A stretch of DNA of 59,564 nt from NCBI GenBank assembly GCA_037447655.1, contig JBBHKE010001946.1:1-59564 (forward strand), in the 5' to 3' direction. Each line of letters opens with the position of its first letter. Within the stretch, counting starts at the first letter, position 1. The notes beneath the pieces were generated by a model, which was not told where the DNA came from, made no database searches, and was given only the letters and a program-made list of their open reading frames with translations. This DNA is from Zygnema cylindricum. Its lineage: Eukaryota > Streptophyta > Zygnematophyceae > Zygnematales > Zygnemataceae. Below, in pieces: positions 1 to 57,451 of the stretch. Position numbers and translations under genes: made by a program.

Positions 1-315
1 GTGTTTTTTTGAGGAGGAAAGTTGAACAGTTTAAACAACATTTTGCAAAAGGAAGTTGTCTTTAACAAACTTCATTATGTACTCAGGTTTGCAAAGATGA
101 AACATATTACATTAGCTCGTGTTTTATAAAATTAAATTTGAATACATTTGAAAATTCATCATAACTTATACTCATAAATTTTGACAAGTGTGATGATGAG
201 AGCCCTATGAATGCAATTAACAACTGTTTGTACCATTTTTTTACATTATTATATTTTGTTCCAAAAAATTGGAAGGTATGTAGAAGCGTGGATTAACAGA
301 TGGATGGCGTTACAG

Positions 316-17743: not shown

Positions 17744-18784
17744 TGAAACTCTAAGACCTCCATAAGTCCTCAGAGTGGACAGCTTCCAAGAAGCCTCTAG
17801 GATAACTCTGACCCCTTTGTGTTTCAGTGAAAACAACTGCCTCCCTGGAAGACAAAAACTCTGACCACCTGCACCCTTGTGAAGGCAAAACTCCCTTGAG
17901 TCTATAGCAAAAAGATTATCTGAATTTGCTCCCCTGATTGGTAAGTTATGGAGGGTCAAAGTTGACCTTTTGTACAGAAGCTCTTTGGGAGAGAGGGTCC
18001 TATCTCCTAATTTTTCTAAGTCCTATCTCTCTCACAAACTCTATCTATTGATGTACGGAACCAATGAAGTTACGGTTCCGTACTCAAAAGTACAATTGCT
18101 GGTGTACTTTATGTACGAACATTGTACTGCATGGCCTAAATGTCGACATTGTCATATCCGAATTCAGTGCCAAAATCTCCGGAGATTCCACGATCCAACG
18201 TAATTTCGCCACTTGTCATCCGATGTGGCGATGGCCACAAACCGCCGAAATCTTCTTCCGCGATTTCGACGACAATCCCAGCCGTCCGATTAAATTCGGA
18301 TTTAATCGTAGCCGCGGTATTTGTTTCACTTACGAAACAAATGCGCGGTATTGATTTTTAGTCCGTATCGTAATCCGTACTTTATATATAACAGGATCTA
18401 TGTATCCCGTAATCTATTACAGTTAAATGATTTATCGTACGTATACATATTTAAATAAATATCAAACTATATACTATGTAACACTAATCCTAGATTTAAC
18501 GGCTAAGGCTACCGACTATTGAAGGTCTGCCGCCCGGAAGGTACAAGGATCAAATCCTATGGCCGGCATAATCTTTTATATAAATAAACCCCTAACTAAT
18601 ATAAATTTCCCATACACCTCTGGATAGCCTAGGTAGCCATGGCTCTAACTCCCTCTCCAATTTCTCAGTGACTGCGACAAGTTTGAGAGTTTGGAGAGAG
18701 AAGTTAGAGGTAGACTACCTCGGCTTCTTTCTATATTTCTATTTAGACCTAGAAAATACTAAAAATCGACCATTAATTTTTACA
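17744..18784 (-). repeat. 3' LTR of the minus-strand Copia
   Basis: 1041 bp, plus-strand ends TGAAACTC and TTTTTACA. It aligns throughout with 23134-24157. It contains GTAC-rich blocks, the ATTTGTTTC/GAAACAAAT hairpin (about 18320-18345) and a decayed form of the 43-nt hairpin at 18527-18569. Confidence 0.85.
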
Positions 18785-18797
18785 CTCCCCTTATTTT
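18785..18797 (-). promoter_or_regulatory. Polypurine tract of the minus-strand Copia
   Basis: Minus strand AAATAAGGGGAG lies immediately before the TGTAAAAATT start of the 3' LTR, the normal place for plus-strand DNA priming. Confidence 0.65.
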
Positions 18798-21700
18798 CTA
18801 GTCAATCTTTAATTTCAGACCGCACTTCTCCTTGCAAAAAATTAGCTTAGGGGAAGGCACTTGTTTGGTCATCATATCTGCTACCATCTCACTATCAAGT
18901 CTGTACTGTAAACTGATTATTTTGTTTTCTACTTTCTGTGTAACAAAGTTGAGTCTGATGTCCATGTGATTGGCTTTATAATGATGTTTAGGATTGGCAG
19001 AAATAGCGATTGCTGCCTGAGTGTCACAAAAAATTTTCTGCACACCACTCTTAAGGTGACCAAGCTCGCCAAGCAAAAACTTGACCCACATCAATTCTTT
19101 TACAGCAGAGCAAGAGGCCATATACTCAGCCTCCATGGTGGACTGAGCAATAACTTTTTGCTACTTGCTACTCCAACAGCAAGCCCATCACCCACATATA
19201 ATACATATCCAGAAGTGCATCTCCTCACCGGAGCATCACTATAACTGGCATCACTCCAAGTAGTGATGTTAGTATTCTCCCCACCCAAATGCAACCATAG
19301 ATCCCTAGTTCCTATCAAATATGGAAGGACTCTCTTAGCTGCCTCCGAATTCCTCTTAGTGGGAGCATTTAGACTTCTACTCAGCACTCCTACTGCTGCA
19401 GCTAAATCCGGCGGGGTACAATTCATAAAATAGATTAGACTTCCCACTACTTGTCTGTAAGGAGTAGTCTGCATGAACTTCTGTTCTTCAGGAAATAAAT
19501 CTTCGTCTAAGACTATGACTCCTTCTTTCTCACTCCACTCACTTCCCCTCTTCAACTCCATTGGAGTTGTACAACTATTAGATTTATCCATTTGAAATTT
19601 TTCAGGCATGTTCCCTATTGCTTCCTTTTGAGTTAGTCTTATAATTTTTCTTTTTCGGTCTCTTTCTACTTGAATTCCCAAAATATATTTTGCTTCCCCC
19701 ATATCCTTCATTTCAAATCTCCCCTTAAGATCGGTTTTCAATTTATTAATTTTTTCCATTGATTTACGTACACAAGCAAATCATCAACATAAATTACAAT
19801 AAATATAAAACCTTCCTCATCTTCGAAAACATAGATTGAGTGATCTGAGCTGATCCGAATATATCCCAGACCAGTAAGAAACTCATCAAGCTTCTTATTC
19901 CATTGTCGATGCGCATGTTTCAAACCATAAAGAGATTTAATCAGCCGGCATACCTTACTCTCCTCTCCTTCCTCCACAAAACCTTCGGGATGTCGCATGA
20001 AAATCTCCTCTTCCAATTCTCCATGCAAAAAGGCTGTCTTGATGTCCATCTGGTGCACTTCCATGTCTTCCGCTGCTGCTAAACTGAGAAGTATGCGGAC
20101 GGAGGGAAATCTGACCACCTGGGCAAAGGTTTCCTCGTAGTCAATTCCCTCTTTTTGTGTCAATCCCATTGCCACTAATCTGGCCTTGTAGCGCTCGATT
20201 GTGTTATCTGGGTTCAGTTTTAATTTGAAAACCCACTTACAACCGATTGGTTTTCGGTTAGGTGGACAATCCACTAGCTCCGAAGTCTCGGCTGCCATGA
20301 TTGAGGCCATCTCCTCATTGATGGCTGTCTTCCACCGGTTTCTTTCTGGACAAGTCATAGCCTCTCCATAAGTTTGAGGTTCATCTTGATGAGATAGTTT
20401 AGTTACCTTGTTATTAACCTGTTTTTCTTGCAGTATTTTGCTACTTCTCCTCCCCCCTTCAAAATTTGAGGCCGGAATAGATGGTTCTCGTGGATTCCTT
20501 CGAACAAACTCGGCTTCTCCCCTATCCCTTAATTCCGTATCAAATTCCACCACGTCTTCCGCTTCGGGTAGAGTTGTCACTAGAGTTTCCACAGCCGAGT
20601 CTTTTTCGGTCTGATTTGTACCTGCAAGAATGTCATCTTCTCTAAAACCTGGATAGTTAGGAATCTCAAAGTCATTAGAATTTTCTGACTCAAATCTGAT
20701 TTTTACTGACTTCGTATATTTGAAGGGATCCAGAGACTTTCCTTCATCCATAACTACTAGATGCTTTACTAAGATTATATCTTCCCTTTTTAGATCATAA
20801 ACTCTATATCCTTTAACATCTTCATCATATCCAAATAAGTATCCCGGTTTTCCTTTAGGATCTAGCTTCCAATTAGACCGATCTGGATCTACACTGAATA
20901 CTTGACTGCCGAAAACCTCTAAGTGAGATATGTCTAGTTTCCGGCCTGTCCATCTCTCATAAGGTGTTTGATCTTTTATAGCTGAAGTAAGAACTCTATT
21001 TTTGAGGTAATTAGCACAGTTCATTGCTTCTGCCCAAAACCTTTTTCCTATCTTCTTATCTGACAACATACTTCTATCACTATCACTTAGTGTTCTATTT
21101 AACCTTTCAGCTACCCCATTTTGTTCCGGGTTTTCCGGGACTGTCTTTAGGTGTTGGACCCCATCTTCCTCCAGAAAATCCTCAAATTGGTTAGAAGTAT
21201 ACTCTCCACCATTGTCACTCCTTACTCTCTTGATTGGAGTTTCATGGAGTTTTTCGCTCCATGCTTTATATTGTCTAAAACAATCATGAGTTTCGGACTT
21301 GTTTTTCAAAAAAAAAACTCGAGAATACCGAGACCAATCATCAGTGATAGTCATCATAAATCTTTTCACCCCCGGTGAGGGCAATTTAGCCGGTCCCCAA
21401 ATATCTGTGTGTACTAGATCTAGAATTTTTTCTCCCTTATAGGTGGCTGTTTTAGGAAAAGGTAATCTGTGTGTTTTACCTTGAGCACATCCACTACAAT
21501 CATTTATATAATCATTCTCACTAAACTTAATCCCTTCCACCACTCCTATCTTTTTCATTTCTTTTAACTTGTCTAGATTCACATGCCCAAGCCTCTTATG
21601 CCACATCATAATATCATGAACACCAGCATAATAAAGTTTCTTCTTTTCATTACTTAAAACTAGCCTAAACATCCCATGGCTACCTTTCTCAGCAATGAAA

Positions 21701-22356
21701 TAGACATCCTCCTCAAAGCTAGCAGTAAAGACTCCTTCCTTAGTGCTAGTAAAAAAACCCTTATCATCTAATACAGATGTAGAGATGAGGTTTTTGTTCA
21801 GCTCCAGAATAAACAATACATCGGAGAATGTTACTATGGATGTCTTTCCTTCTACTAACACTTTCAAATCTACCAATCCTACAATAGTAGTGGTGACTAT
21901 CCTCCCATCCCCGTACTCTATCTCTACGGTGGGAATCTTTCTTATCTTAGTGAACAGGTGCCTATCCTTACACATGTGCATGGAGGCACCTGAATCTACA
22001 ATCCAGCCTGCTTCACCTTTCAATCCACCGTAAGCACATTTCTGCCTTCGTGGAATTTCGACCTCGTTTTTCGCCTCCAACTCCTCATCCAAAAGGAGCT
22101 CATCGTCCTCGTCCTCGGATTCCGCCTCATGTACCTGTGTCACAAGGGCCTTTTTCTTTCCTCTCGGGGTACCACCGGTTTGCCCCTCTTTTAACCGAAG
22201 CTCGGTTATCTTAGTGCATTCTGCCATATAGTGCCCAGGTTTCTTATAAAAATGACAAAAACCTTTGGAGCCCTTGGTCCAAACTCGTCGGTCTGATTTT
22301 TCTGCTCCCTCCCCCCATAGTTTCCGACCGGTTTCCGGGAATCCTTGTTCCTCCAA
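18798..22356 (-). pseudogene. Copia pol: protease, integrase, reverse transcriptase, RNase H (frameshifted)
   Basis: The main frame, 22356-19738, runs 872 codons. In order: a zinc knuckle CHFYKKPGHYMAEC (the second Cys is Tyr), protease WIVDSGASMHMC, GAG-pre-integrase MWHKRLGH plus CSGCAQGKTH, integrase with HTDIWGP, RSDNGGEY and EQNGVAERLNR (D, D, E), then reverse transcriptase with KWVFKLKLNPD, MDIKTAFLHG and the YVDDLL catalytic motif. A frameshift near 19745 moves reading to 19759-19100, which holds the thumb region and SDASYSDAPVRRCTSGY of RNase H. A second shift near 19130 moves to 19136-18798 with MEAEYMA, CDTQAAI and HMDIRLNFV. Relative to active Copia only the knuckle change and two or three frameshifts are seen, so decay is moderate. 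Confidence 0.92.
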
Positions 22357-23069
22357 TCGGTGGAAGTTACAAAGGCTTGGCCACTCTTTCCTCCCCTTCG
22401 GATCTCAATCGTATTCTCCCAAACGAGAATCATTCCTACCACTGAGTTCCATATCCACCTTGAGTCCGGCAAGTCTTGCCCACGGTTGACTACGTTTTCG
22501 AACTCATCGGGTAACTTCATTAGTAAAGAGTTAACTTTTTCTTTTTCACTAAAAAATTTTCCGGCACTCTCTAGCTCCATACAGAGTGTAGCAAGCTCAT
22601 TGCAAAAATCCAACATCTTCCCCGTTTTGTATACATACTTCTTAACTTTCTGATCAGCCAACTGTTGTTGCTGAATCCTACCACTTCGGTACATCTCTAT
22701 GAGAGCCATCCAAAGATCGGATGCCCTTTCTACCTGCAAATGGGGACATGCAATTCCTTGAGTGAGATGGCGTAGGATGAAGTGCTTTGCCGCCATATTG
22801 TTGAAGTCCCAGGTTTCAGTATCATTCTCCTCGTTCCTCGGAATAGGTGACATGAATGTCGAACCAGTTGCTATTGGTGTGGTCGCCTCCTTCTCCTTTC
22901 CTTTGTCCACCACCTCTCCTTCTTTTGTTTCCTCCGTTGAAGGTGGATCCTCTTTTCTAGTGAATCTAATTCCTCCAAACCCTGGAGGAATTCCCAGACT
23001 TGATGGATGCCCCAACCGTCCACTCACTATCCCCCAAAACCTTTTTTCGCATAGAGCTCTTATCATCAT
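22206..23069 (-). pseudogene. Copia gag of the minus-strand element
   Basis: 287 codons overlapping the pol frame by about 150 bp. It contains the UBN2-type gag core (AAKHFILRHLTQGI, ASDLWMALIEMY, LLMKLPDEFENVV). The zinc knuckle lies in the other frame at the start of the pol reading frame, so a frameshift, by decay or programmed, separates gag from the rest. N-terminal codons near 23069 follow directly after the 5' leader. Confidence 0.85.
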
Positions 23070-23111
23070 ACATTCCTATTATATGAAGCTAGTTCCATTA
23101 AAGATTGGTAC

Positions 23112-23133
23112 CCTAGAGGGTGAGCCCTTAACC
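23112..23133 (-). promoter_or_regulatory. Primer-binding site, half-tRNA(iMet) type
   Basis: Directly inside the 5' LTR the minus strand reads GGTTAAGGGCTCACCCTC. The sister element at 37148 has GGTTATGGGCCCACCCTC, whose first 15 bases are complementary to the anticodon arm of plant initiator tRNA-Met. This copy has two differences from that match. Confidence 0.65.
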
Positions 23134-24157
23134 TGAAACTCTGAGACCTCCATAAGTCCTCAGAGTGGACAGCTTCCAAGATGCCTCTAGGATAACTCTG
23201 ACCCCTTTTTGTTTCAGTGAAAACAACTGCCTCCCTGGCAGACAAAAACTCTAACCACCTGCGCCCATGTGAAGTCAAGACTCCATTGAGTCTATAGCAA
23301 AAAGAATATCTGAATTTGCTCCACTGAGCAGTAAGTTATGGAGGGTCAAAGTTGCCCTTTTGTACACAAGCTCTTTGGGAGAGAGGGTCCTATCTCCTAA
23401 TTTTTCTAAGTCCTATCTCTCTCACAGTCTCTATCTACTGATGTACGGAACCAATCAGGTTACAGTTTCGTACTCAAAAGTACAACTCCCGGTGTACTTT
23501 ATGTACAAACATTGTACGACATAGCCTAAATGTGGACACATGTCATATCCGGATTCGGTGCCATAATCTTCGGAGATTCCACAATCCAACGTAATTCGCC
23601 ACGTGTCATCCGATGTGGCGATGGCCACAAACTGCCGAAATCGATTTGCGCGATCTCGGCGCCAATCACGGCCGTCCGATTAAATTCGGATTTAATCGTA
23701 GCCGTAATAAATACATGCGCGGTATTTGTTTCACTTACGAAACAAATGCGCGGTATTGATTTTTAGTCCGTACCGTAATCCGTACTTTATATATTACCGG
23801 ATCTATGTATCGCGTAATCTATAACAATTAAATGATTTATCGTACGTATACATATTTAAATAATTATCAAACTATATACTACGTAACATTAATTTTAGAC
23901 TTAATGGCTAAGGCTATCGGCTGTTAGCTGCATGCCGGCCGGCAGGTGCAAGGATCAAATCCTGTTGCCGGCATAATCCTTTTATATAAATAAACCCCTA
24001 ACAAATATAAATTTCCCGTAAACCTCTAGATAGCCTAGGTAGCCATGGCTCTAGCTCCCTCTCCAATTTCTCAGTGACTGCGACAAGTTTGAGAGTTTGG
24101 AGAGAGAAGTTAGAGGTAGACTGCCTCGGCTTCTTTCTATTTTTCTATTTAGACCTT
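23134..24157 (-). repeat. 5' LTR of the minus-strand Copia (main part)
   Basis: It starts TGAAACTC on the plus strand and follows the 3' LTR at high similarity. It contains CCACGTGTCATCC (a G-box core, about 23600), GTAC palindromes and a 43-nt hairpin at 23932-23974. The remaining LTR end (TTAATTTCTACA) is at 25351-25384, after a nested LTR. Confidence 0.85.
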
Positions 24158-25310
24158 TGTTAGATAGAAAAGAGTAGAGGCAGTCTGCCTCTGACTCTCT
24201 TCTCCAAGCCCCCACACTTGTCGTAGTCACTGAAGGCTGGAGAGGGAGCTAAAGCCATGGCTGCCTAAGCTTTCCAGAGAGACAGGAATAGATAAAAGGC
24301 ATGTTTACCAAAAATATATTTGACGGACCCAGGAATTGATCCTGGTACCTACCGTCCGTCAAACATCCAGTAGCCGTTAGCTCTAGCCGTTATGTCTAGA
24401 ACAGATATTACGATATATAGGGTTTAACAAATATTTAAACCGTTAAATGTAGATTAATCCGTTTAACGGCTAAATAGATACTTAGTACATAGAAACAGTT
24501 TAATTTAGTACGGAGTACGGAATGGGGGGCAGAACGGATACCGCGCATTTGTTTCGATAGCGAAACAAATACCGCGCGTCGAATTTCAGCGGCTAGGATT
24601 ATAGCCGGTTTTGATCGGACGGCTACGATAAGCGCCGCGATCACGGAAAAGGTACTTTTGGCGTTTTACGGTCTTTGTCACGTCAGGTGACACGTGGCGT
24701 GATAACATTGGACTACGGGAATTCCGGAGATTACAGGAACTAATCCTGATTTGACACGTGTCGACATTTTGGCCATGTCGTACAATGGTCGTACAGAAAG
24801 TACACCGGCACCTGTACTTTTCTGTACGACACAGTAATTTGATTGGTGCCGTACTTCAGTAGATAGAGTTTTAGAGAGGGTTTAGGACTTAGAAAATTTT
24901 GCGTAGGCAGCTGCCTCTCCCAGAGAGCACCCTATATAAATGGCAAACTTTGGCCAGCCATAACTATCAATTTACTTGACCATTTTCAGTGATTCTTTTT
25001 GCTGCGGACTCAGGGGAGTCCAAGCTACACAGGGGTGTAGTCGGTCAGAGTTTTTGTCTGCCAGGGTGGCTGTATTTCTAAGGGAAAGTCAAAGTGGGTG
25101 AATGTGTCCAAATCTCATATTCTAACTTTGCATTCTGTGGTGGAACTGAGCACACAGAAAGTGTTATTTCACAGGGGTGAATCAATATTGGGGTTCTGAC
25201 TGTCAAGGGGTCAGTCACTTGGGTTTATATTAACTTGAAGTCGGCACTATCTAGATTAGCTTCTTTTGGATCTGCATACTCTGAGGGCCAATGGAGGTCT
25301 CAGAGTTTCA
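24158..25310 (+). mobile_element. Inverted Copia LTR nested in the 5' LTR
   Basis: 1153 bp, starting TGTTAGATAG and ending AGAGTTTCA, in the opposite orientation to the host LTR and only moderately similar, so a sister subfamily. A TATATAAA box is at 24933-24940, downstream of ACACGTGG and GTAC-rich blocks, giving a plausible U3 promoter. There is no 5-bp target duplication. Instead it is flanked by two 40-bp direct copies (24117-24156 and 25311-25350, two differences). It has no internal region, so it is a solo LTR or a recombination product. Confidence 0.7.
24320..24362. other. Conserved LTR hairpin
   Basis: Arms ttgacggac and gtccgtcaa pair perfectly, with an inner 5-bp stem and 7-nt loop resembling a tRNA T-arm. 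The counterpart at 23932-23974 keeps the pairing with different bases, and 18527-18569 is a decayed version. Confidence 0.55.
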
Positions 25311-25563
25311 TAGACTGCCTCAGCTTCTTTCTATATTTCTATTTAGACCTAGAAAATACTAAAAATGGACCATTAATTTCTACACAGGACCTTCCTCTGT
25401 GTGAGAAGGAATCAGTGCTGCCACTACCTCCCTTCTTATTCGAGGAGGGACCTGTTTGGATCCGGAGATTCAAGACCCCGGAGGAGGCTAACCGGCTCAA
25501 TTTGTCAGTCCCAGTAGACAGGCTTCACCATGGTTCCTCAAAACTACGGAGGAGGAAAAGAAA

Positions 25564-27050
25564 ATGGGGGACATCCGGATCTTCACAGGTGATAACTCTG
25601 GGATTGCTTTCTCCGATTTCAAACTGCTCTAGAAATCTTTCGCACAATCCGAAATTAACAAATATAGGGGGAGATCCATACCATCGGATTACGAAAAAAC
25701 TCTTTTTCCAATGAGGGTCAATTATTTAGCCAAAGGGGCATTGGCGGATTATAAGGAACGTCAACCCTTGTTGATAGCCCCTACTATCAAAATATCAGAT
25801 CCAGACTTGGACGCTGATGTCCTTCAGGCAGCCGCAGAGTTCGCCTCCCCCGCTTTAGCTCCTATCAAAATCACGTTCACTATGGACATGAATTCACGTT
25901 CAGTATGGACATGATGTGCAGGCCCAAGGTAGGGCCTATGTAAATTATTTTCAAGGTTTACAAGTCGCCGAGGCCGCCACTCGGATGATTGCCAACCTCA
26001 CTCACTGTACAACTCTCTTGGACGCTTAGAGACTCTTTTATACAAAAAGGAACAAAAAAGCAATCAAGGAGTTAACCGATTTCCGATGTTTGAAGGATGA
26101 AACTCCTCAGACCCTGTTCAACCGCCTCTCCAGCCTCTGTCAGAAGACCAAACTGTCCACCATTGATACGCCATCAATGGCCACCAATTACTATGTGGTT
26201 GTTCGAAAATCATTCGGGCCAACAGGGCAGACAACTCTAGACAATTGGAGTGCCAATCACGCTATACACGACGAGAATCCTACGGCTCAAGAAATTTCAC
26301 TAGCGGCAATGAAGTTGTATGATCATTTTATGAACAGCGAGGCGAGAGAAAAGGTTGTTGCGGGAAAAGCAAGAGCCAACTTTGCAGGTTTTGCGGGGGA
26401 ATCACCTCTCAGCTAAGAGGATCATACTGAACTTCAAGCTTTGCGGAAGATTAAAGGGAAAGAGGAAGCTGAAACTAAAACCGAACTCGCAATGAGGGCA
26501 GATGAAAAAGTTTATCTTTACAATTGCCTGAACTGCAATCAAACTGGTCACGGGTGGAAAAGATGCCCCAGAAAACTCAACCCATAACTCCCGATTAAGA
26601 AAAAAGAGTTTGAGAATGAACGTGCAAAAACAACCCGGAGGCAGCAGGATCGTAAACTGGTCACGGGTGGAAAAGATGCCCCAGAAAACTCAGCCTATAA
26701 CTCCCGATTAAGAAAAAAGAGTTTGAGAATGAACGTGCAAAAACAACCCGGAGGCAGCAGGAACGTAAAGAAGGAGGCGGAGCAGGGGACCGCACGTCGG
26801 TCACTAGAGACAGCTATAAACCTACTCCTTGTTCTAAAACGACAAAAATGTCTCAATCCCAGTTGAGACAAATACAACTTCCTAAACTTGATGATGCTCA
26901 GATCTCAAATGAGCTAAGGGGGAAGTATACAACTGACGGGTCGAAATGTGAGGCTTGTGGTTTCATGGGGCACAAAGAGGGGCAATGTTTCCGAAAGAAC
27001 GGGGTCTCGAAAGAAATGCTGCAATACGCGCTGTTCATAAGCTAAGGGGA
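25564..27050 (+). pseudogene. Ty3/gypsy gag relic with CCHC knuckles
   Basis: From ATG 25564 the frame reads MGDIRIFTGDNSGIAFSDFKLL, cut to MGDIRIFTGDNSGIAF and a stop soon after where a Trp codon is likely. Further gag pieces follow, among them TLFNRLSSLCQKTKL and AIHDENPTAQEISLAAMKLYDHF. A knuckle CLNCNQTGHGWKRC lies at about 26522-26570, and a second Cys/His cluster CEACGFMGHKEGQC at about 26947-26990. A 113-bp tandem duplication shifts the frame between them. The order gag, protease, methyltransferase, RT, RNase H, integrase defines one decayed Ty3-type element. No 5' LTR is seen because the Copia sits directly upstream. Confidence 0.75.
26541..26766 (+). repeat. 113-bp tandem duplication in Ty3 gag
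   Basis: Two near-identical copies, 26541-26653 and 26654-26766, both starting aaactggtcacgggtggaaa. The length is not a multiple of three, so it changes the frame. Confidence 0.85.
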
Positions 27051-28080
27051 AACAACCGTTAATCCCCTGCCACTTCAACTTTTGTATCCACGGGAATGCC
27101 GATCTCTTAGTGAACCAAGGCCCAGTACAATGACGCAAGAAAAGATCATCCAGCAACAGAGCAGTCAATTGCACGCTTTGGCAGCAGAACAAGCTGCTCT
27201 CCGCGTGTGATCAAATGCTCGCACCCTCGACCTTTGATGGCAACTCAAAAACTGCAAAAACAAAAACAAGAACTGCTGCAAAAGATGGCTGAGCTGGAAC
27301 AGCAAACCACAGTGGGGGGTGATGACGATGACCTAATGGGATGGGATATGGAGCCTACAAATGCTCATCATGCTCGGACATTACTGTCCGGAGCGTGGAA
27401 CGTTAGAGTAAGAGACAGTCGTAGGCAACTGCGCCCTAGAAAAGGGACCAATAGCCGATGGAACGAGGGGACCACAACCATAAAACCACCGGTTCTTTAT
27501 CCTTCACACCCAGAGCGGTCCTCCTAAACAGTGACATTGGGCTGGGCCTAAAGCCAACTCATCCGCCTCCTCCATCTCCAAAGAAACATCCTCCTGGTTT
27601 GAAAGATTTTAAAAAACCCCAGTTGGAAAAAGATCCTTCAACCACTGAGACAGATCAAGAATGGTTTGACCGATACCTGGTTGAAAGACCAACCATCGAT
27701 CCTCCGATTACACCTCCAATAGGGAATTTTGACGAGGAAAGTGCAGAAGGAGGGGGGGGGGGAACAGGAGAAATCGGAAGATGACAATTCACCCATGTCA
27801 TCGCCCAAAGCTCTCCCTCCTTCCTCTAAGCCGGTAGTAATGTTAGTACGGCACTTGATGCCCTACGCTCTGACTCATGTCAAAACGCTAGCCTCCTCCC
27901 ACATTTTCCCCGAAGAAATACTCATACAAGCATTAGGGGAAGAGATTCACACCAAGAAAGAAAGGGTCGCGTTGGCATAACCACCCAAGACGAGTTTCAT
28001 GGCGGCAAAACCAAAAACTTCTATGGCCAATAGAGATTATAAGGCCCTATCAATTGCTCTTATTTTTAACATGACGGGAA
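27051..28080 (+). pseudogene. Ty3 linker region with coiled-coil and acidic segments
   Basis: Open pieces between gag and protease. At 27237-27310 a Gln/Lys/Leu-rich heptad stretch (KLQKQKQELLQKMAELEQQ) suggests a coiled coil, followed by an acidic GGDDDDLMGWD. Pro-rich pieces follow to 27784, then 27729-27980 (IFPEEILIQALGEEIH). These are probably parts of the gag-pol polyprotein; no family is recognised. Confidence 0.5.
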
Positions 28081-28104
28081 ATTTTAATTTTAATGGATAT
28101 GGCG

Positions 28105-28570
28105 AGTATGAGGATGCCGTAGTAAACACTGGAGCTCTTCGAATCTCATAACCACATTAGCATTACAACAAATGCCCGAGGAACTCCGGTCGAAAACCAG
28201 TCCAAGTCACATTTGCGTGAGTACAGTCAGCAATGGGAGCCAACCAGTCTACGCCATCATCAAGGCAATGGAAATCAAATTTGCTAATGACGCGGGCCAA
28301 TACGTACTTATTCCATTCCCCTTCCTAGTGGTGGAAGGTAAGCAGTTTGAAATTTTGCTGCGTATGGCTACCTGGACCAGGATGAACATGGAATTGAGCG
28401 TGTGGAAAGAACAAATTACAGTTTTAGACCCGGAGGACCCAAAGGGCACCAAAGTGGTGGTCCCTTGGATTTATGGAACCGGGCAAAAACAACTTTCCAT
28501 ATATCTAGATGTTATCCCGTATATTCTGCATCAACACCTTCAGAGTTGTTTGGAGACTCCACAAATATTG
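28105..28570 (+). pseudogene. Ty3 retropepsin-like protease relic
   Basis: VVNTGA at about 28119-28136 occupies the place of the aspartic protease DTGA motif; Asp is Asn here, a GAC to AAC change. After a one-base shift the frame 28145-28636 continues LITTLALQQMPEEL, VSTVSNGSQPVYAI and FLVVEGKQFEILL, which fits the flap and core of a retropepsin. With the catalytic Asp lost and the frame broken it cannot be active. Confidence 0.6.
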
Positions 28571-28682
28571 CTGACTCTATATAGCAATTCGATATATCCA
28601 AGTGGTGGGAAAAGAAGTATTATAATAAATTGGTAAAGATGGCCAGACTTTAGCTGGAAGTGGACAGAAGCTTTGCCGCCAT

Positions 28683-29760
28683 ATCGCACAAAATAGCAAA
28701 GGTTCTCCGGTCAAAACCTTTGACAGTTTCTTAAAAAGGGAACGACTTTGATGGACAAGTGGTGTCACTGGAGAGCTTGCCCTCGAACTCAAGATTCTAT
28801 CATTATTTTCTGTTTTCAATTTCGACCTGGAAGCCGTCTTGAAAGCAGGATACAAAGTAGAAACATACTCGCCAGTTGAGATTGACCTGGACACCCGTGC
28901 AATTAGCGAGTATAGACTACAGCATCTTCACCAACTTTACCCACAACAACTTCCAGTATCAACCATGTCTAACTCTCATCGCAGGCTACCTCAGAATGTG
29001 GACAACATTACAAATTCACATTTGGAAAAGCTGGGACAAGTAGATCAGGTGGTCGCTGGATGGCCATACCAAGGGTACTGGTTAGCAGGATAGGGCAGGG
29101 GACACCAAGATGTCGGTAGCATGACATTCTTCCATATGACGCGACTGATAATAGAGATATAGAAATGTCATGACACGCCAGTGGGGTATGTCCTGGAAAA
29201 TGTTCATCCCACATATGATAAAAGAAAACTGGTGGTTAGTAGCTGGAACCACGTAACTCAAGTTCTGGGAACTCCCATAGTTTTTGACGCATCTTAGATT
29301 GGATCAATAACCCACAGAGTTCGAGCTTATTGGACCAACTTGGTTCCTCTTCCAATAGTCCAACAGCTCTTGAAAACACTGGTTCCGGATCCTAACATCA
29401 TAGTTGAGCAAATACTCGTTCCAGGGCAAATGGCCATCTGTGACGAAAGCTGACCGAGCACCCTTCTTCAGTTGCAATCCTCTCGGGAATCCACGGAAAG
29501 CCCTACCAACCCTGGTATCATTCCCCAACAGCCATGCTTACTGGAAAGGTGCCCCAAGAATGATATTTGACAGCATAGCCGCAACGTGGACAACACCAAG
29601 AATTTAAGAATAGGAACGAGCAATGGGATTTTGATAGGGAACCACAGCACCACCAAGGGTCTCAGTCTCAAAATAATGCAGTTTGATCAAGCAAAGTATG
29701 GATTTGAATGCAATTTCTTGGGTGCTACAACATTCTTTGGCATTCTCCAGCCTACAATCT
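28683..29760 (+). pseudogene. Retrotransposon-encoded C5 cytosine DNA methyltransferase (decayed)
   Basis: Placed between protease and reverse transcriptase. In one frame to about 29430: motif I region LELKILSLFS (the glycine-rich part is altered), motif II SPVEID at about 28874, then YRLQHLHQLYPQQLP, motif IV VVAGWPYQGY at about 29048 (catalytic PCQ here PYQ), motif VI GYVLENV ending at 29204, and motif VIII THRVRAYWTNL at about 29310. After one frameshift near 29425: ADRAPFFSCN, RKALPTLVSFPNSHAY (target-recognition and motif IX region), ERAMGF, and the motif X-like segment MDLNAISWVLQ at 29698. The length fits a full catalytic domain. TAG stops at 29091, 29160 and 29295 each fit CAG to TAG. 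Known C5 methyltransferases transfer methyl from SAM to cytosine; this copy is inactive by sequence. Such domains in retrotransposons are reported from charophytes and dinoflagellates. A host pseudogene is unlikely because it sits in polyprotein position. Confidence 0.88.
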
Positions 29761-29764
29761 CTAA

Positions 29765-30060
29765 AGTCACAGACAATATACCTTCAAGCTCCACAATTGT
29801 TGGCCATGCAAGCTACTTTAAAACTTGAGGGGTGGAGAAAGGCAAGAAGAGGAAAAATCACAATATTACATTCAAAGATCACACAGAACCCAGGATTTTC
29901 CTCAGTGGGGGGGAGCGAATGCTCAAAACATAAAATTGTCAGTAGCACCGTTTTTGCATCTGAGCACAGCACCGTTTTTGCATCTGAGCACGGGGCAGAT
30001 CCATAGGTAGAGCTTAAATTCGACATCTCCCTCAGGGGTTGACCGGCGGAAGCATGGGCT
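29765..30060 (+). other. Spacer between methyltransferase and RT, small direct repeat
   Basis: Contains a 27-bp tandem duplication at about 29945-29998 (gcaccgtttttgcatctgag twice). Otherwise no domain is seen; probably part of the polyprotein linker. Confidence 0.4.
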
Positions 30061-30069
30061 GCAGTGGAA

Positions 30070-31000
30070 CCCAAAAAGATGGACTGGACTCTAAGGGAAA
30101 AGCTAGATCCACATCAAAAGGCTTGACTCTCCAAGCTGTTAGAGGAGAACGGGCACGTGTTGAATTGGTCTGACACATATATAAGAATCTATAAGGGGAC
30201 CCCTTTTTGGATAGATCTGACTGATAAGATGTTAACTGTTTAGCAGAAAGAGTATCCTCTCAGCTTGAAGGAGAAGGAGTTCATCACCGTAAAGGTGCAG
30301 ACTTTGGTGGACGTAGGGCTTAAACAGTAGAGTACTGGGCTATATGGGTTCGCCTCTTTAACACTGCTCCCGCCACAGAAAGACTCCTTCGGGAAAACTC
30401 TAGATTTTCAGATGTGTGGAGACTATCGAATGCTCAACACGGCAACTGTTTTCGATCGTTATCCAATGCCTACCCCAGAAGAGATCTTTGATTCTCTTCC
30501 TAGGGTCACCATTTATTCCACATTGGATATGAAGAATGGATTCCACCAGATTGCAATGGAGCCAAAGCACAGAGAGAGGACAGCTTTTTGGGAAGGGACC
30601 AGGTTGTATGAGTGGTTGTACAAGCCATTTGATTTCAAAAATGCACCTGCAAAATTCCAACAGGCTATGGACTAGGCCCTCTAGGGAATAGATTGTGCAC
30701 ATTGTTACATTGACGATGTATTCATTTTCTCTAAAACATTCGAAAAACACTTAGATCATATATAGATAGTTCTCCGACCTCTCCAAGCAGCGTGCTTAAA
30801 GTGCCATCTGAGGAAGGGAATCTTAGGGGTGCAAAAAATCAATTATCTGGGTCATGAGGTGACTTCAGGACAGTGGGTCCCCACATGGTTAAGAAGGCAG
30901 CGCTCGAAGCACTTCCACCCTGGCAGGAAATTTCTGCCCTCTGCACTTTCCTAGGTCTGGCCAACTATTACCAGAGGTTTATTCCCGCATTCAACAGCCA
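30070..31000 (+). pseudogene. Ty3 reverse transcriptase relic
   Basis: Largely one frame. MCGDYRMLN and DRYPMPTPEEIF at 30412-30490, IYSTLDMKNGFHQIAM, LYKPFDFKNAPAKFQQAMD, then after two TAG codons CYIDDVFIFS, the YxDD catalytic motif. YLGHEVT follows at about 30845. This order is typical of Ty3/gypsy RT and differs from Copia (YVDD). The stops inside QAMD-TAG-AL-TAG-GID fit CAG to TAG. Confidence 0.88.
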
Positions 31001-31149
31001 CGCCCAGCCATTGAATCAATTATTGCGAAAGGACCAAGAGTGGCACTAGGTAGAAGAACAGCAGATCGATTTTCAGTACTTGAAAGACTCCCTAAAGGAG
31101 CATCCGGTGCTCCGGACGCCTGGTCACCAACGACCTTTCCTCCTTTATA

Positions 31150-31510
31150 CTGATTGGAGCAGGTCGGATTGGGAGCAATGCTGGCACAATTCCATGATGC
31201 AGGGGCAAAATACGTAGTGGCTTACACCAGTCGGAGCAATAACAAGGCCAAAGGGAATTACAGCAGTTACCACGGGGAATTACTTGCCGCAGTATGGGCC
31301 ATACACCACTTCAGGCCTAACCTCTACGGAGTACATTTCACCCTTATTACGGACCACCAGCCCCTCAAATAAATAATGGAAAACAGTAAGTTGACTGGCA
31401 AGTTGGCCAGATGGGTTCTCATTTTGCCAGAATATGATTTCAACATCATTCACCGAGTTGCGGAGATTCATGGGAATGCAGACGGACTCAGCAAGAATCG
31501 AGACCCTTCC
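31150..31510 (+). pseudogene. Ty3 RNase H relic
   Basis: The frame from 31154 reads VGLGAMLAQFHD, YVVAYTSRSNNKAKGNYSSYHGELLAAVWAI and FTLITDHQPLK, the RNase H connection and active-site blocks of Ty3 elements, then LARWVLILPEYDFNIIHR and the GNADGLSKN end block after a stop. Confidence 0.85.
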
Positions 31511-31799
31511 ACCAGATCTCTTTTGGGGCTCGGCACAATGAAGAACCGGAGCTTAGCTTGGGACATATCAGGGCTTCTTTCGCCTTCATTTGACTGCCTT
31601 GTACTGAAAGAGAAGAGTTGACTTTTGCTGTCGGCGTCAAGGGCCATGCTCCCTTTGGAGCTGGCAGCAAGGATATTTGGAGTGACACCATTTTTCTCCA
31701 GTCCATCCAGAATGGTTTCCCTCTTCCTCACTTGGCCGGGAGTCATTTGTCTTGTGTTCTGACACGGATGGCGGCGTATGAATGGGACCAAAACATTCT

Positions 31800-32950
31800 T
31801 CTCATAAAATGGGCCGATAAGACAAGGAAAGTGGTCCCCCCTTCGGGAGATTGGGAACTCTCATTGATCGACTTCGCCAGCACTACGGTCACTTCGGACA
31901 AAAACGAACAACCTCACTCGTTACAGGGTCGTACTGCTAGCATGGGTTGCGCGCTTATGTCAACCATGAGGTGCAGACATGCCCTTCTTGTGACCGGGTG
32001 AATGCCGCCTTTGACAAGGAGGGTGGAACGGAACTTCATTCCCTCCCCATCCTGGGGATGTTTTACCGGTGGTCACTGGATCTCTTGGGACAACTCCCAA
32101 CCAGCCGGAGGGGAAACTGTTTTGTTTTGGTAATGATTGAACAATACTCCAAACGATTCAAACTCGTGATCCTTCCTTGAAAGGAGTCAAAAGCAATCGC
32201 GAACACATTGTTGTAAAGAGTGTTGTCCCAATTTGGAGCACTCGCAAAAGTTCTCACGGATCAGGGTTCCGAGTTTGCCGGAGAATTTTCTAACCTCCTT
32301 GAGAAGTGCCTCATTGACCACTGGTTTACCAGCCGAGACTACCCCTAAGCCGACGGTCTGGCTGAGAGGTGTGTACAGAGAGTGAAGCGGTCACTATGAA
32401 AATATGTAGTTGAAGAGTATTTGGGGGAAGGGGACAGACGGGTGCCTTGGATTGCCATGGGATACAAGTTTAGTAGGCAGGCCTCCCTCCACTCCTGTAG
32501 CCCTTACTTCATTCTCGTCGGGCGACATCCCATCCTACTAGGAGCTACCTCCGCTGAGGCGGTTGTGCTTCTACAAATGGACAACTAAAGGACTGTCGAG
32601 AAATTGATTACCAACCGGGCCAAAGTATGTCACCGGGAAATACCTTTGGCTATGGGAAATCTACAAGCTCTTTAGCATAGGGATCAGCTTTGGTATTCCC
32701 AACGCCAGAATGGAAATTATGTCCCACAGCAAAGGCGATTCTTACCTGGGTATTTTGTGTGTCGCATGCAATAGAAGAACGATACTTTGGACATTTCGGC
32801 CGGACAAGTGATACTGAAAGTAGTGGAGGTCTCTTAGAAAGGGGTTCTTAACTTGGAGGGGAAAGACGGCCGCAAAAGTAAAGAAAATCAGATCAATGTG
32901 GCTCCTTGCCACCTAAGAGGGCTATAATACGAACCCACTTTCCACCTAAC
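31800..32950 (+). pseudogene. Ty3 integrase relic
   Basis: An N-terminal zinc module HYGHFGQKR ... CPSCDR (H-x3-H, C-x2-C) lies at about 31883-32000. The core follows with WSLDLLGQLP (first Asp), VLTDQGSEFAG (second Asp) and ADGLAERCVQR (Glu), and then a C-terminal segment with ILVGRHPILLGA, DQLWYSQRQNG and CHLRGL, the place of the GPY/F-type tail. Several in-frame stops interrupt it, mostly at codons one transition from Gln, Arg or Trp. Confidence 0.85.
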
Positions 32951-32972
32951 TTATTTTGCATAACCACCCTCC

Positions 32973-33131
32973 TGTTCCTCTGCTTGCAATGGGTCCTCTA
33001 CGCCCGACCTTCTGTTAATGTGTGAACATTGTCACCAGGGGTGGCACCAAGGCCCCTTACCACTGAATTGGGAGCACCGCTCTCATCGCGCAATTCCGTG
33101 GTTTTGTGGGGATTGCGAATTTGGCTGCTAA
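32973..33131 (+). pseudogene. PHD-finger-like Cys/His module at the C-terminus of Ty3 pol
   Basis: In the same frame as the integrase tail, after TAA codons one transition from CAA, the protein reads CSSAC, then LLLMCEHCHQGWHQG, then PWFCGDC and a TAA at 33129-33131. Spacing (C-x3-C, C-x2-C, H, C-x2-C) and the WH and W-F-C-x2-C signatures fit a PHD zinc finger with seven of eight ligands; the Cys expected three residues after the His is Pro. PHD fingers bind histone H3 tails, so a targeting role like that of chromodomains in other Ty3 integrases is possible. This is inference. Confidence 0.55.
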
Positions 33132-33179
33132 TTTGTCTAATCCTCTTAGTCACACGTGAGTCAAAGGAGGGGGGGAATC

Positions 33180-34765
33180 TGAGGGGGGGTAGGGTGTACC
33201 TTTTTCTTTTTCACTCAATTCCTCATTATTACCTATGCATATCGTTGAGGGGGGGGAAAGGCAAAGATGGGCATTATCACGAGTCCGGGGAATCATCAGC
33301 ATTTGGGGTGGATGGCAGGTTTCTCATGCACACCTCATACGACATCTTACCTGAACCTCACGGTCCCAAGGCACGTTCTACAACTGTCAAGCTCGTGTGC
33401 ATCTTTGGCACATTTGCACTCCTAGGAGTTCCAAGGCCTCGTCCCACCATGTACAGACTCCAACATACGGAGAAGGGGGAGGACAAGCCTCCAGATCATA
33501 ACTTTGTATTTTCACCGTGGAGCACAACGCACTTGAGATCACCTTAAACGGAGGCCGAACAGCAGAGTTAGTCCGGTGCAAAGGTGGCGGCATCATTACA
33601 TGGCATCCGTTTTATGTAACTCTTGCGGAGGGGTACACTGTGGAACGGCACGCAGCCTTTGGGGTTGTCTCGTAGATCTTGCTGTCAGCTGTCGATAGGA
33701 AGTTAGTTCACGCCCAACTGACGGGCAGAGCATTTATGACACCGGGTCAAAGTTAAAATTTTCACTTCAATTCATAACTTTGTGGCTTACTAGTGTACCA
33801 TAGGGGGACCTTTGGTTGTCAATTGAGCCGGAGCCAGTCGCCTAACTTTTTTCCCTGAGTGTAGTACACACTTTTTTGTCTTTTGTTCGTACGATAACAA
33901 TTGCTGGTTGATGATTGTCTTATAGCATTGCTTTGACTTTGGAGGGTGCAATAGGAAAGACTTTGATTGTATAAGACAATTAGGGCCGAAGGAGACAGGT
34001 TGTTTTTTTAGTACTGTCTCTTGAGAAATCCCTCATAAAATATAATCAACCTTTTATGTTGGAGAATTGTTGCATTTTGTCGTTGACTCTATTTGCCATC
34101 TTTGTTTTGGATTGTCTATTGTGGAGACCGTAGCTCGGGTGGGTGGTTTGCACTATCCTCTATTTGGGCGGTTTGGACTTTTGTTGTTTGAAACTTAGAA
34201 GTGTCTTGTCAGATCTGTACGGCGAAACCAAGTGGTGAGGAAGACTCATACCTGTCTTCGAGGCCATTGGGAGAGTTTCTTTCTTTTGACTTTGGTCCTC
34301 GATGCACTGCGGGTTATGTTCGCTCGCTTCACCATTATTATTGACTTCTATCTTTATTTCCATTCTCTAGGGCAAGGTGATATTGTTTAATCTAAAAGAG
34401 GCAATTTATATTTGTTCCACATTTCTGCGTGGGAGCTATTTGGGTACTCTTGTGGTCATCTTTAGTTTCTGTCCGGAGTTCTTGTGGGCCGGATCGGACG
34501 AATATCATTTCCTTTCTATTCTCCGGAGAGTGGTCTGGGGTGTAGCATTTTGTAGGCTTTTGACGGATAAGCTAATATGAGGAAGGGTACGGGGTACCTT
34601 TTTCTTTTTCACTCAATTCCTCATTATTACCTATGCATATCCCTGAGGGGGAAAGATAGAGAAAGGCATTGTCACGGGTCCTGGGAATCATCAGCATTTT
34701 GGGGTGGATGGTAGGTTTCTCATGCACACTTTTTAGGACATCTTACTTGAACCTCACGGTCCCCA
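33180..34765 (+). repeat. Direct repeat, candidate Ty3 3' LTR start and second copy
   Basis: A purine tract AAAGGAGGGGGGGAATC precedes TGAGGGGGGGTAGGG at 33180, as expected where a polypurine tract meets an LTR. The next 185 bp (gtacctttttctttttcact...) recur at 34578-34765, 1398 bp away, with moderate divergence. Possible reading: an LTR of about 1.4 kb followed by the start of another. No CA end or target duplication could be fixed. 33132-34577 shows no convincing gene. Confidence 0.4.
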
Positions 34766-34779
34766 GGACCGCTTGACAA

Positions 34780-35842
34780 AGACTAATAAACAAAAGATGC
34801 CTTTCTAGCAGCAAAACAAAGAAGGAGTTCTTTTGAGTGAAAAGGAAGAAGATACCGAAGTGCTTTTATTCCCAGAGGAGTTTGTATACATGTCTAAAGC
34901 AGGTGAAGATTTATCATTTTCCGGATGGATCATGGATTCAGAAGCATCTGCTCATACGTGCAAAGATAAATAAATTTTTGTTTCTCTTTAAGAAATAGCA
35001 CCAACAAAAATTTATTGCGGTGATAGAACTAGTTAGATCTCTACAGCAAAAGGAAAAGTGATAATGCATGTGAATATAGGAAGTGATACATTAAAAAGAA
35101 TGCTAGAAAATGTGTTGTATGTTCCTAGCTTTACAAAGAATTTGTTTTCGACATCACTTGCAGCGAAAAGAGGATTTAAAATAATTATGGAAGGAAGTCA
35201 GCAGATTGTCAGTAAGAATGGTTAGACGTTTTTGGAAGGCATTCTAAGCGAAAACAACATGTTTAGGATTGTCATGGGAAATAACACTCAACATTTTGGA
35301 CTTACTATAGAGAGTTGTCTGACCATGAATTGTGGCATAAACGTTTTGGTTATACAAACTATGATAAACTTAATAAGATGTATAAGGACAAAGTGGTGGA
35401 TGGCTTAAAGTTTTCAGTCATATCAGATGCTTGTGATGGTTGTGCTCATGGAAAAATACATAAACTACCTTTTCCAAAGGACAAGGCCAGTATAGCAGAA
35501 AGAGTCCTAGGAGTAATTCACTCATATGTACGGGGACCCGCCAAAAAAGAGACTCAGTAAGAAAAAATATATGGTTAATTTTACAGATGATTGGTCTAAA
35601 TATAGCATGGTATATTTTATTCAAAACGAAGAAGAAGTTTTTTCAAAATTTAAAGAATTTAAAGCATTGGTGGAAAAACAACGAGGAGTATCAATATCAC
35701 AACTACGGACCAACAATGTAGGTGGATACATATCAAAGGAGTTTGTTGCATACTTGAAAGAACAAGGAATTCTTCACAGGCTAACTGTTCCCCATGAAAT
35801 TCTATGGGCTCCATTGCCACACAGAATTCGCAGGTCTTAAGG
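34780..35842 (+). pseudogene. Copia pol fragment (protease to integrase)
   Basis: GWIMDSEASAHTC at about 34925 is a protease site with DSG changed to DSE. VLYVPSFTKNLFSTSLA follows. GAG-pre-integrase ELWHKRFGYTNYDKL and CDGCAHGKIHKLPFP lie at 35315-35480, and the integrase part has YMVNFTDDWSKYSMVYFI, with RTNNVGGY where RSDNGGEY is expected. The fragment stops abruptly at a truncated LTR (35843). It resembles the 10.9 kb relic more than the 18-23 kb element. Confidence 0.8.
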
Positions 35843-36885
35843 AAGCTAATCTAGATAGTGCCGACTCCAACTTGATATAAACCCAAATGATTGACCCCTT
35901 GACAATCAGAACCTCATTAAAGCTTCACCCCTGAGAAGTAAGACTTTCTCTGTGCTCAGTTCCACCACAGAATGCAAAGTTAGAATATGAGATTTGGACA
36001 CATTCCCCCACTTTGACTTTCCCTTAGAAATGCAGCCACCCTGGCAGGCAAAAACTCTGACCGACTACACCCCTGTGTAGCCTGGACTCCCCTGAGTCCG
36101 CAGCAACAAAAATCACTGAATTTGGTCAACTGAATTGATAGTTATGGCTGGCCAAAGTTTGCCATTTATACAAGGTGCTCTCTGGGAGAGGCAGCTACCT
36201 ACCAGAAATATTCTAAGTCCTAAACCCCTCTCTAAACCCTATAGTACTGAGGTACGGACCAATCACATTACTGTATAGTACAAAAAGGTACAAATGCCGG
36301 TGTACCTTTTGTACGAACATCGTACGACATGGCTAATAAGTCAACAAATGTCCTATCCGGATTCGCTCTTGTATTCTCCGGAATTCCTGCCTCCAAATCT
36401 TATCTCTCCACGTGGCGCCAGGTCATGCCGCGTCAGAAAACGGTACCGTACAAGAAAGTACAAGTGCCGGAGTACTTTCTGTACGTACATTGTACGATGT
36501 CGCCATAGTGCGACATTTGTCACTCCCAGATTTGTTTTCCGCCGTTCCGGAAATTCCGTAATCCCGTACGATGTTGCCACGTGTCATCCGGAGTGGCGGC
36601 GTCTGCAAACTGCCAAATTTTCCTTTCCGCGATGTCGGCGCTTACCACGGCCGTCCGATTGATATAGGTATTAAATGCGAACCGTCGAAACAAATGTCCG
36701 TACTATTTGTTTCGTCCGGTACTAATAGTACAAACTGTTTCTATGTCCTATAGACCGTAATCTAGTTAAATGGGAAAACCTATGTTTATTTGTTTAAATA
36801 CATATCAAACCCTATGTCACTTAGCACAAGTCCTAGACTAAACGGTCAAGGCTAACGGCTACTGTGACGGACGGCAGGTTACTTA
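35843..36885 (-). repeat. Truncated Copia LTR, minus orientation
   Basis: It aligns in order with the reverse complement of 24158-25310 from gaagctaatctagatagtgcc onward; the terminal TGAAACTC end is missing. The U3 part carries two successive copies of a GTAC-rich block (36270-36440 and 36440-36600), each with an ACGTG element (ccacgtgg, ccacgtgtc). Confidence 0.7.
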
Positions 36886-50126: not shown

Positions 50127-50640
50127 AGGTGAAGTTTAAACAACAACGAAAACTTTTATATTATAACCCTTGTTAATCATCTTACACTTTATGGTCATGT
50201 AGCCACCAAAATCGGAAAAAATATATATATATATATATATATTTTTTTTTTACAAAAGCACTTCGTTTAAATAACCAGGTACAGCCCAATCATTTGTTTT
50301 CAAAATGTTGCAATCAAAAGTTGAGCTCATTTTTTGGCTAATAGTTCTGAGAATTAAATAAAATTTTCCACAACTAAAAAATTGACGGCTTGGAGAATCT
50401 GAATTAAAATAATGAAGTTGGTTGATTTTGCAAGTTTGCTTTCACCTTTTATAATAATGTGATGCATCTTATACAAGACAGAGAAATGAAAGGAATCAAT
50501 TTCTTAAAGTAGCACAAATACATGTGCCATGATTTTATACAATACTATTTCAATTGTCGTCACCTCAAACTTCAAACGTGTTATTGTAATGCTATGTATC
50601 TTACACATGCTGGAGAAGTAAGGAATTTGTATATTTTATT
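46357..50640. repeat. Segmental duplicate of 1-130 and 2310-6680
   Basis: Exons and introns of gene B align in order with gene A, including the polypurine intron. Relative to A, B lacks about 2.2 kb (A positions 130-2310) containing three LRR exons. Conserved introns imply a fairly recent duplication. Confidence 0.75.
50221..50242. repeat. (AT)11 microsatellite
   Basis: Pure AT dinucleotides followed by a T run, in the 3' flank of gene B; absent from the A copy. Confidence 0.9.
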
Positions 50641-50653
50641 AAGACACATTGTG

Positions 50654-50882
50654 TGTTGGATGGGCACGTATATGCCGGTCACCACGGGTTAGAATATGGT
50701 AGTATCCATACTCGAAGTTGCCCGTAATAAATGGGTACGGACCCGCCGGGCTCCACATCGAGTCGGTGGCACGGTGGTAGTGCGTTCGAGCTGAAGTGAA
50801 AGGTCCCAGGCTAGAGCCCTTGCCGACTCAATTTTCCCCAGTGTGGGACATGCCGAATCTCGGATTTCCAGGAAATCTAACA
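50654..50882. mobile_element. 229-bp insertion with TGTTGGAT/ATCTAACA ends and a tRNA-like core
   Basis: Present in the 3' flank of B but absent at the matching A site (about 6690). The ends are TGTTGGAT and ATCTAACA, near-perfect inverted repeats with TG...CA. Inside, 50760-50829 folds like a tRNA: acceptor arms GAGTCGG and CCGACTC, a D-arm GCAC-GGTGGTA-GTGC (A-box-like) and a B-box-like ggtcccaggctagagccc. This suits a small non-autonomous retroelement (SINE- or TRIM-like). No clear target duplication. Confidence 0.55.
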
Positions 50883-57019: not shown

Positions 57020-57451
57020 GTAAGTTTTCCCCTTGTTTGACTTTCATTTTACACTCTGTTTTTGTTGTGCACTTCAGGTTTTCATGTTAGGTTATTTGTG
57101 AAACGACGTCTCAGTTATGTTGAGCGTCGTAATATAATTTCATGATGTTACGCGTGGCGTGGCATGATTAGTTTAGTTTTATATAGTTTGGTTTTGGTTT
57201 TGCGTGCGTAGTACCTTAGTACCCTAGTGTTGTACGGCGGTATGTTTGTTTCGTACAGTACTGCGTACTTTATGTAGTTTCAGTTGTTGTTTGATTTGAT
57301 TGGTTCGCGCGCGTACTTTTGTACGACGTGTTTTTTTCCTGTACTTGTTGTTTCGTGAGAGAGAGTATTTAGGACTTAGTCGCCTGAGAGAAAATTATAT
57401 TTTGTAAGGGGAAAAAAGGGGAAGTTTAAAGTGGGGTAGGAGGATCCGATC
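57020..57451. other. Leader or LTR region of the right-edge Copia, boundaries unclear
   Basis: GTAC-rich stretch (gtacagtactgcgtac, gtacttttgtacgacg) like the U3 parts of the other Copia LTRs, and a purine-rich ggggaaaaaaggggaag shortly before gag. No LTR ends could be fixed because the partner LTR lies outside the window. Confidence 0.35.

Follow-up and report, generated by a model that had tools for sequence, protein, structure and literature searches.

We conclude with high confidence that positions 28788 to 29740 of the window (the whole stretch of DNA analysed: 59,564 bases, 40.6% GC) carry the decayed DNMT3-class DNA methyltransferase (DNMT) domain of an old Ty3/gypsy copy, and that the copy belongs to a family with the anatomy set out here. 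Members of this family encode, over one or two reading frames, gag, protease, DNMT, reverse transcriptase (RT), RNase H, an integrase of the DDE type and a PHD-like finger, the coding part being set between split direct repeats in the order A-coding-B-A-B. The window copy itself is dead and its catalysis has been lost.

Anatomy and decay of the window copy

The following features were assigned to the copy:

25386..34778, plus strand: Ty3/gypsy copy, its left end lost where a copia fragment adjoins
25488..27980, plus strand: gag region remnant (DNA similarity to L040 and L041)
28136..28420, plus strand: protease remnant (35 bits with a profile built from relatives)
28788..29740, plus strand: predicted DNMT3-class C5 DNA methyltransferase domain, broken (tblastn against P0001, alignments)
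30127..30882, plus strand: broken reverse transcriptase that retains YIDD (30331-30672 matches RVT_1 of Pfam at E=3.1e-8)
30870..31528, plus strand: broken RNase H region split over two frames (P0001 tblastn and family profiles)
31857..32924, plus strand: integrase, broken (P0001 tblastn and family profiles)
32964..33128, plus strand: PHD-like finger, degenerate (Pfam PF00628 E=5.4e-4, 20.4 bits against a cut-off of 24)
33176..33384, plus strand: repeat B1 (aligned with B2 over 197 columns at 86.8% identity)
33385..34567, plus strand: repeat A2 (aligned over 1189 columns, at 79.8% identity, with the A repeat 5' of the coding region in the C1374 relative)
34574..34778, plus strand: repeat B2, stopping at the element's CA terminus

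An earlier note, made from the sequence alone, had described a gypsy element with a C5 methyltransferase between protease and RT and a PHD-like module. The methyltransferase blocks that it named were found in the window, in order and spread over two frames. The domain is flanked on the same strand by the protease remnant and by RT, which was matched downstream from 30346 with 141 bits (profile built from relatives). The order protease, RT, RNase H and integrase is that of the Ty3/gypsy superfamily, and relatives possess an RVE integrase. The PHD-like module does lie 3' of the integrase; it is degenerate in the window and common among relatives. In the profile check that the note had proposed, the first 233 DNMT residues, with X at three stops, matched PF00145 at E=6.7e-4 and 19.6 bits, short of the gathering cut-off of 22. 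Against the PDB the same residues reached DNMT3A at E=9.1e-5. A Pfam search with single open pieces of the window DNMT returned no DNMT match, and with the window's own DNMT letters as the protein query none of 255 candidates scored.

The assignment of the domain draws on P0001, a JGI metagenome protein of 1494 aa with an open frame, which is collinear with the window by tblastn from the DNMT to the PHD-like tail at 33116. The P0001 DNMT domain matched 28788-29432 with 188 bits (43.7% identity over 215 residues) and continued in another frame from 29440 (96 bits, 29440-29784). As a control, 20 dinucleotide-preserving shuffles of 28600-29850 gave a best score of 23.1 bits. At the 5' side, DNA similarity to relatives starts at 25488 (L040) or 25547 (L041), and two CCHC-like knuckles, CLNCNQTGHGWKRC and CEACGFMGHKEGQC, were spotted by eye in the gag remnant. 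The gag region also contains a 113-bp tandem duplication (26541-26769, 97%) that is single copy in L040 and L041 by alignment.

Decay is evident throughout. The homologous frames contain 30 stops (3+13+1+1+1+11) in 1454 codons and five frame changes; within the DNMT, three stops up to 29432 are followed by a frame change near 29435 and five more stops up to 29676. The catalytic cysteine of motif IV is replaced by tyrosine. Cysteine is present in 37 of the 37 family rows with a letter at this position (38 rows, one gap). It is likewise present in 24 of 24 rows from the same genome and related loci, leaving tyrosine confined to the window among 25 rows; three of the 24 repeat the same places, one is L028, and the loci were found via a DNMT profile, so that this count leans toward conserved copies.

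Base changes in the window copy were polarised by three agreeing relatives, and part of them may therefore fall on the relatives' side. C-to-T changes affected 87 of 374 CG, 102 of 562 CHG and 170 of 1547 CHH sites, with T-to-C changes at 163 of 2351 sites (Fisher tests on C-to-T: CG versus CHH 5e-9, CHG versus CHH 2.6e-5, CG versus CHG 0.07). The corresponding C-to-T counts in L051 were 16/225, 15/351 and 34/1439, and L041 and L040 showed few such changes. The excess at CG and CHG suggests past methylation of the copy. CHG methylation is a mark of plant-kind host enzymes. The excess at CHG thus points to the host and does not show the self-methylation that the earlier note had entertained; past methylation of the window copy is explained as well by host enzymes. 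In sum, it is an inactivated remnant without present function that was probably once methylated.

The surroundings are rich in other repeats. Copia LTR fragments lie at 24181-25385 and 35794-36414, in opposite orientation and 86% identical over 625 columns, placing the gypsy copy in a nest of copia pieces. A copia element whose LTRs share 90% identity, and whose pol piece of 888 aa is mostly open, occupies 17744-24156 on the minus strand, and copia-like gag, protease and integrase pieces run along the plus strand from 57440 to 59562 and past the window end. Additionally, 1-8153 and 46359-52406 form a segmental duplication in direct orientation, its pieces mostly 75-84% identical; near 5.2-6.2 kb and 49.1-50.1 kb it includes the Cys-rich and Pro-rich coding pieces of a gene-like stretch. 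A tandem array of period 75 (about three copies) is found at 44682-44929.

Relatives in the same genome and in sequence databases

The window's own genome (352.8 Mb, 2689 contigs) yielded at least 123 PF00145 matches scored from 782 candidates, 85 of them free of stops within the matched stretch as counted from the listing; part of these matches may be host genes. Sixteen places, 15 with open frames longer than 700 aa and one more, were taken as 9.9-kb loci and are thus a biased sample. Family profiles found protease, DNMT and RT in this order on one strand in all 16, in agreement with the order read in the window, and the PHD module in 12 of 12 loci whose integrase match passes profile position 230; the other four are cut or truncated within or before the integrase. 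Five further places of 3.2-3.5 kb each gave protease and DNMT in four, two of which also had RT. No RT was found within the 1.0-1.2 kb downstream of the DNMT in L030 and L032, and the family profiles found nothing in the 3.2-3.5 kb stretch of L036. Being picked by their DNMT, these loci cannot show how many relatives lack one. Seven places (L030, L031, L037, L040, L041, L050 and L051) are 77.8-78.8% identical to the window over 2.3-8.2 kb; L035, part of L041, is 77.4% identical and L045 67%, with other loci matching short stretches only.

Searches of protein databases returned 36 relatives by RT and 35 by DNMT, 69 different proteins altogether. Named hosts include Marchantia polymorpha, Closterium and Calypogeia fissa, and the spider Araneus appears among distant DNMT-free relatives. 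Two layouts were observed. The DNMT precedes RT in 15 of the 69 (P0001, P0002, P0005, P0014, P0016, P0019, P0020, P0022, P0037, P0045, P0050, P0054, P0058, P0067 and P0068), with P0017 a sixteenth in part, and it follows RNase H in eight (P0051, P0052, P0053, P0056, P0057, P0059, P0061 and P0069). The remaining DNMT-bearing proteins among the 69 are without RT. In quick trees, where the DNMT branch leading to the window is long, proteins of the second layout fall into a single starred clade by RT (8 rows) and likewise by DNMT (10 rows, P0062 and P0065 added). The window groups with P0001 and P0002 at 96, starred, in the RT tree and at 86, not starred, in the DNMT tree. RT and DNMT distances are correlated (r=0.82 over 21 rows; r=0.72 over 15 dereplicated rows; 0/9999 permutations each), as they are within the first layout alone (0.65, 9 rows, 23/9999 permutations).

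The PHD module was detected in 19 of the 30 proteins with at least 100 residues past the integrase match: 12 of 15 that bear a DNMT, seven whose sequence begins shortly ahead of RT, and none among the remaining eight. The DNMT-bearing exceptions are P0058 and P0067, which gave no PHD score, and P0017, whose integrase match is misplaced. We considered the PHD proteins without a DNMT as relatives lacking the domain, a reading weakened by L028, a contig deposited under a cyanobacterial metagenome-assembled genome (MAG). Here, a 1162-aa protease-DNMT frame is followed by one stop and a 1047-aa frame running from RT to PHD, the latter 93% identical to P0010; proteins that start at RT can therefore be second frames of DNMT elements. 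L028:1-9285, from a Synechococcales MAG, is itself a DNMT-bearing gypsy element, its two ends sharing an identical overlap of 127 bp, and is probably eukaryotic DNA binned with a bacterium.

No relatives were found when viral contigs were scanned with the window DNMT and RT pieces, and a scan with the DNMT alignment gave partial matches at 27 loci. A search of phage DNA gave no match, and a search of plasmid proteins returned three records with distant RT.

Enzyme class, split repeats and selection

The DNMT motifs stand in unrearranged order, LFSG-like, PCQ, ENV and RxR with the ERAMGF block last. A profile of five relatives scored DNMT3A at 80.7 bits among 55 rows, with the next class at 42.9 (4onj, a DRM), HaeIII at 38.0, a DNMT2-kind tRNA C38 methyltransferase at 37.9 and DRM2-named entries at 30.4; no DNMT1 or CMT entry was among the 55. 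The structure predicted for the P0002 DNMT (13 sequences, mean pLDDT 76.6, pTM 0.55) found its best fold match in the DNMT3A-DNMT3L entry 6f57 (E=1.1e-18), and the best 50 of 1617 fold matches were DNMT3 entries. By sequence profile and by the modelled fold of P0002, the domain thus appears nearest to DNMT3. Profile, motif order and predicted fold concur in an unrearranged DNMT3-class enzyme inside a gypsy Pol.

The repeats were read from young copies of a subfamily other than the window's. On contig C1344, A1 (85514-86444) precedes the coding part, which is followed by B1 (94737-94978), A2 (94981-95911) and B2 (95912-96154); A2 is 100% identical to A1 and B2 99.6% to B1, the ends are TG..CA, and a 4-bp target-site duplication, TTGG, is present. 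C829 shows the same A-coding-B-A-B order (A 99.2-99.7%, B 99.5%) with the 4-bp duplication AAGG, so that duplications were seen in both of the two copies with both flanks read. Copies on C1374 and C544, members of the window's subfamily, have the order A-coding-B, the outcome that recombination between B1 and B2 would be expected to leave; no duplication was seen there by eye. The window retains coding-B-A-B, its left A repeat having gone at the junction with the copia fragment, and an identity of just 86.8% between its B repeats indicates an old insertion. Paired full LTRs at both ends, as expected of Ty3/gypsy elements, were not found; the family has a DIRS-like repeat order, of which the window itself keeps B-A-B only. 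The A repeat occurs 5' of the relatives' coding regions, and we therefore no longer read 33176-34573 as a plain LTR.

Values of dN/dS for the DNMT ranged from 0.13 to 0.37 in nine non-identical pairs drawn from five copies of the window's subfamily (two identical to each other). These values, well below 1, are those of purifying selection on the DNMT. In the other set, seven of ten DNMT pairs had saturated dS (dN 0.11-0.16) and three pairs gave 0.18-0.33. Integrase pairs of L044, L046 and L048 gave 0.64-0.82 at dS 0.009-0.024 with few changes, which does not show strong selection.

Possible roles and known systems

A chance, one-time capture of a host DNMT gene or pseudogene between protease and RT, limited to the window copy, is exceedingly improbable. 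The window by itself could not have excluded a single capture, its single pieces having no Pfam match, but the same order recurs in all 16 long loci chosen from the genome and in the database proteins of the first layout (P0017 in part), and the RT and DNMT distances are correlated over the 21 rows. We also consider it very improbable that the element is a DIRS-type element with a tyrosine recombinase, or a DNA virus fragment. The repeat order is DIRS-like and DNMT3 also occurs in SymbioDIRS elements (PMC5890265, main text); against this stand the retropepsin-like protease, the RVE integrase of relatives and the 4-bp target-site duplications, DIRS elements being marked by a tyrosine recombinase and no such duplication.

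What the domain does for its element is a harder matter: why would a transposon keep, under selection, an enzyme of the sort by which transposons are silenced? One tentative possibility is that, in living copies, the DNMT made within Pol would methylate new cDNA or a fresh insertion, and that the PHD finger would aid by recognising a histone tail there. A CHG excess pointing to host enzymes weighs against such self-marking, as do the lack of methylation by the Klebsormidium gypsy DNMT in yeast, termed inconclusive by its authors, and, on few changes, the integrase dN/dS values of L044, L046 and L048. Alternatively, the DNMT may serve the element through RNA methylation, protection of cDNA from deamination, or a change in host chromatin that makes transposition tolerated, silencing of its own copies then being a side effect or absent. 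Such options are listed by the authors of PMC5890265, and dN/dS below 1 would hardly be expected of a domain whose sole effect is to silence its element; conversely, the family has conserved the catalytic and motif VI/VIII residues that characterise DNA methyltransferases, and SymbioDIRS-Dnmt3 domains methylate CG in yeast, as described in PMC5890265. We regard this second proposal, too, as possible and somewhat doubtful.

A broader reading seems plausible to us, if just short of probable: a gypsy clade of the green lineage, with liverworts, charophytes and further hosts, and characterised by a DDE integrase and split repeats, may, as it diversified over a long time, have kept a DNMT3 writer and a PHD reader in one polyprotein, where writer and reader would jointly mark the new copy or its target. 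Since the DNMT lies either before RT or after RNase H, it would have moved, or been gained twice, within this one clade. For dating the gain, extra characters come from the PHD module and from the alternative positions of the DNMT. More than 100 DNMT matches, with young copies bearing identical repeats and old dead ones, mean that one genome permits a comparison of young and old methylomes. The family's traits outweigh the window copy in interest: a PHD module, a DNMT in either of two positions, members in Marchantia and Closterium, and split repeats combined with duplications of the integrase type.

Members of DNMT3 embedded in LTR and DIRS elements have been described from streptophytes and dinoflagellates (PMC12344493). 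The Symbiodinium DIRS-type DNMT3 was the only type reported to produce CG methylation in yeast; the Klebsormidium gypsy DNMT gave none, a result termed inconclusive by its authors (PMC5890265, main text). SymbioDIRS-Dnmt3 resembles the present family in a DNMT3 within Pol and split repeats, and differs, by its description in PMC5890265, in a tyrosine recombinase and DIRS RT where a DDE-type integrase, protease and target-site duplications occur here.

Proteins from Marchantia polymorpha (P0019, P0022, P0050) and Closterium (P0014, P0020) share the DNMT before RT. Depending on the region, their identity to P0001 or to the window is 37-46%; they are named hypothetical or unnamed in databases, and P0017 and P0016 are imperfect copies. 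In chromoviruses, which are likewise gypsy elements, a chromodomain follows the integrase. The present family similarly bears a histone-reader-like module at the integrase C-terminus, but a PHD-like finger replaces the chromodomain, and a DNMT and split repeats are added. By title and abstract opening, no open-access paper was found on PHD-bearing DNMT gypsy elements or liverwort DNMT retrotransposons; at that depth we found no description of the PHD module, of members in Marchantia or of a DNMT placed after RNase H.

The closest known system is KnitGypsy-Dnmt3 of Klebsormidium nitens, whose Gypsy Pol carries DNMT3 with DIRS-like repeats and purifying selection (PMC5890265, main text). It shares with the family an unrearranged DNMT3-class domain in a gypsy Pol, the repeat order and the selection, the comparison being one of published descriptions; none of the 69 protein matches was named Klebsormidium. 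It differs in its host and, as far as the main text of PMC5890265 goes ('PHD' occurring 0 times), in the PHD-like module that lies 3' of the integrase here. Thus, the kind of element is known from KnitGypsy-Dnmt3, and the window copy is a further, dead representative.
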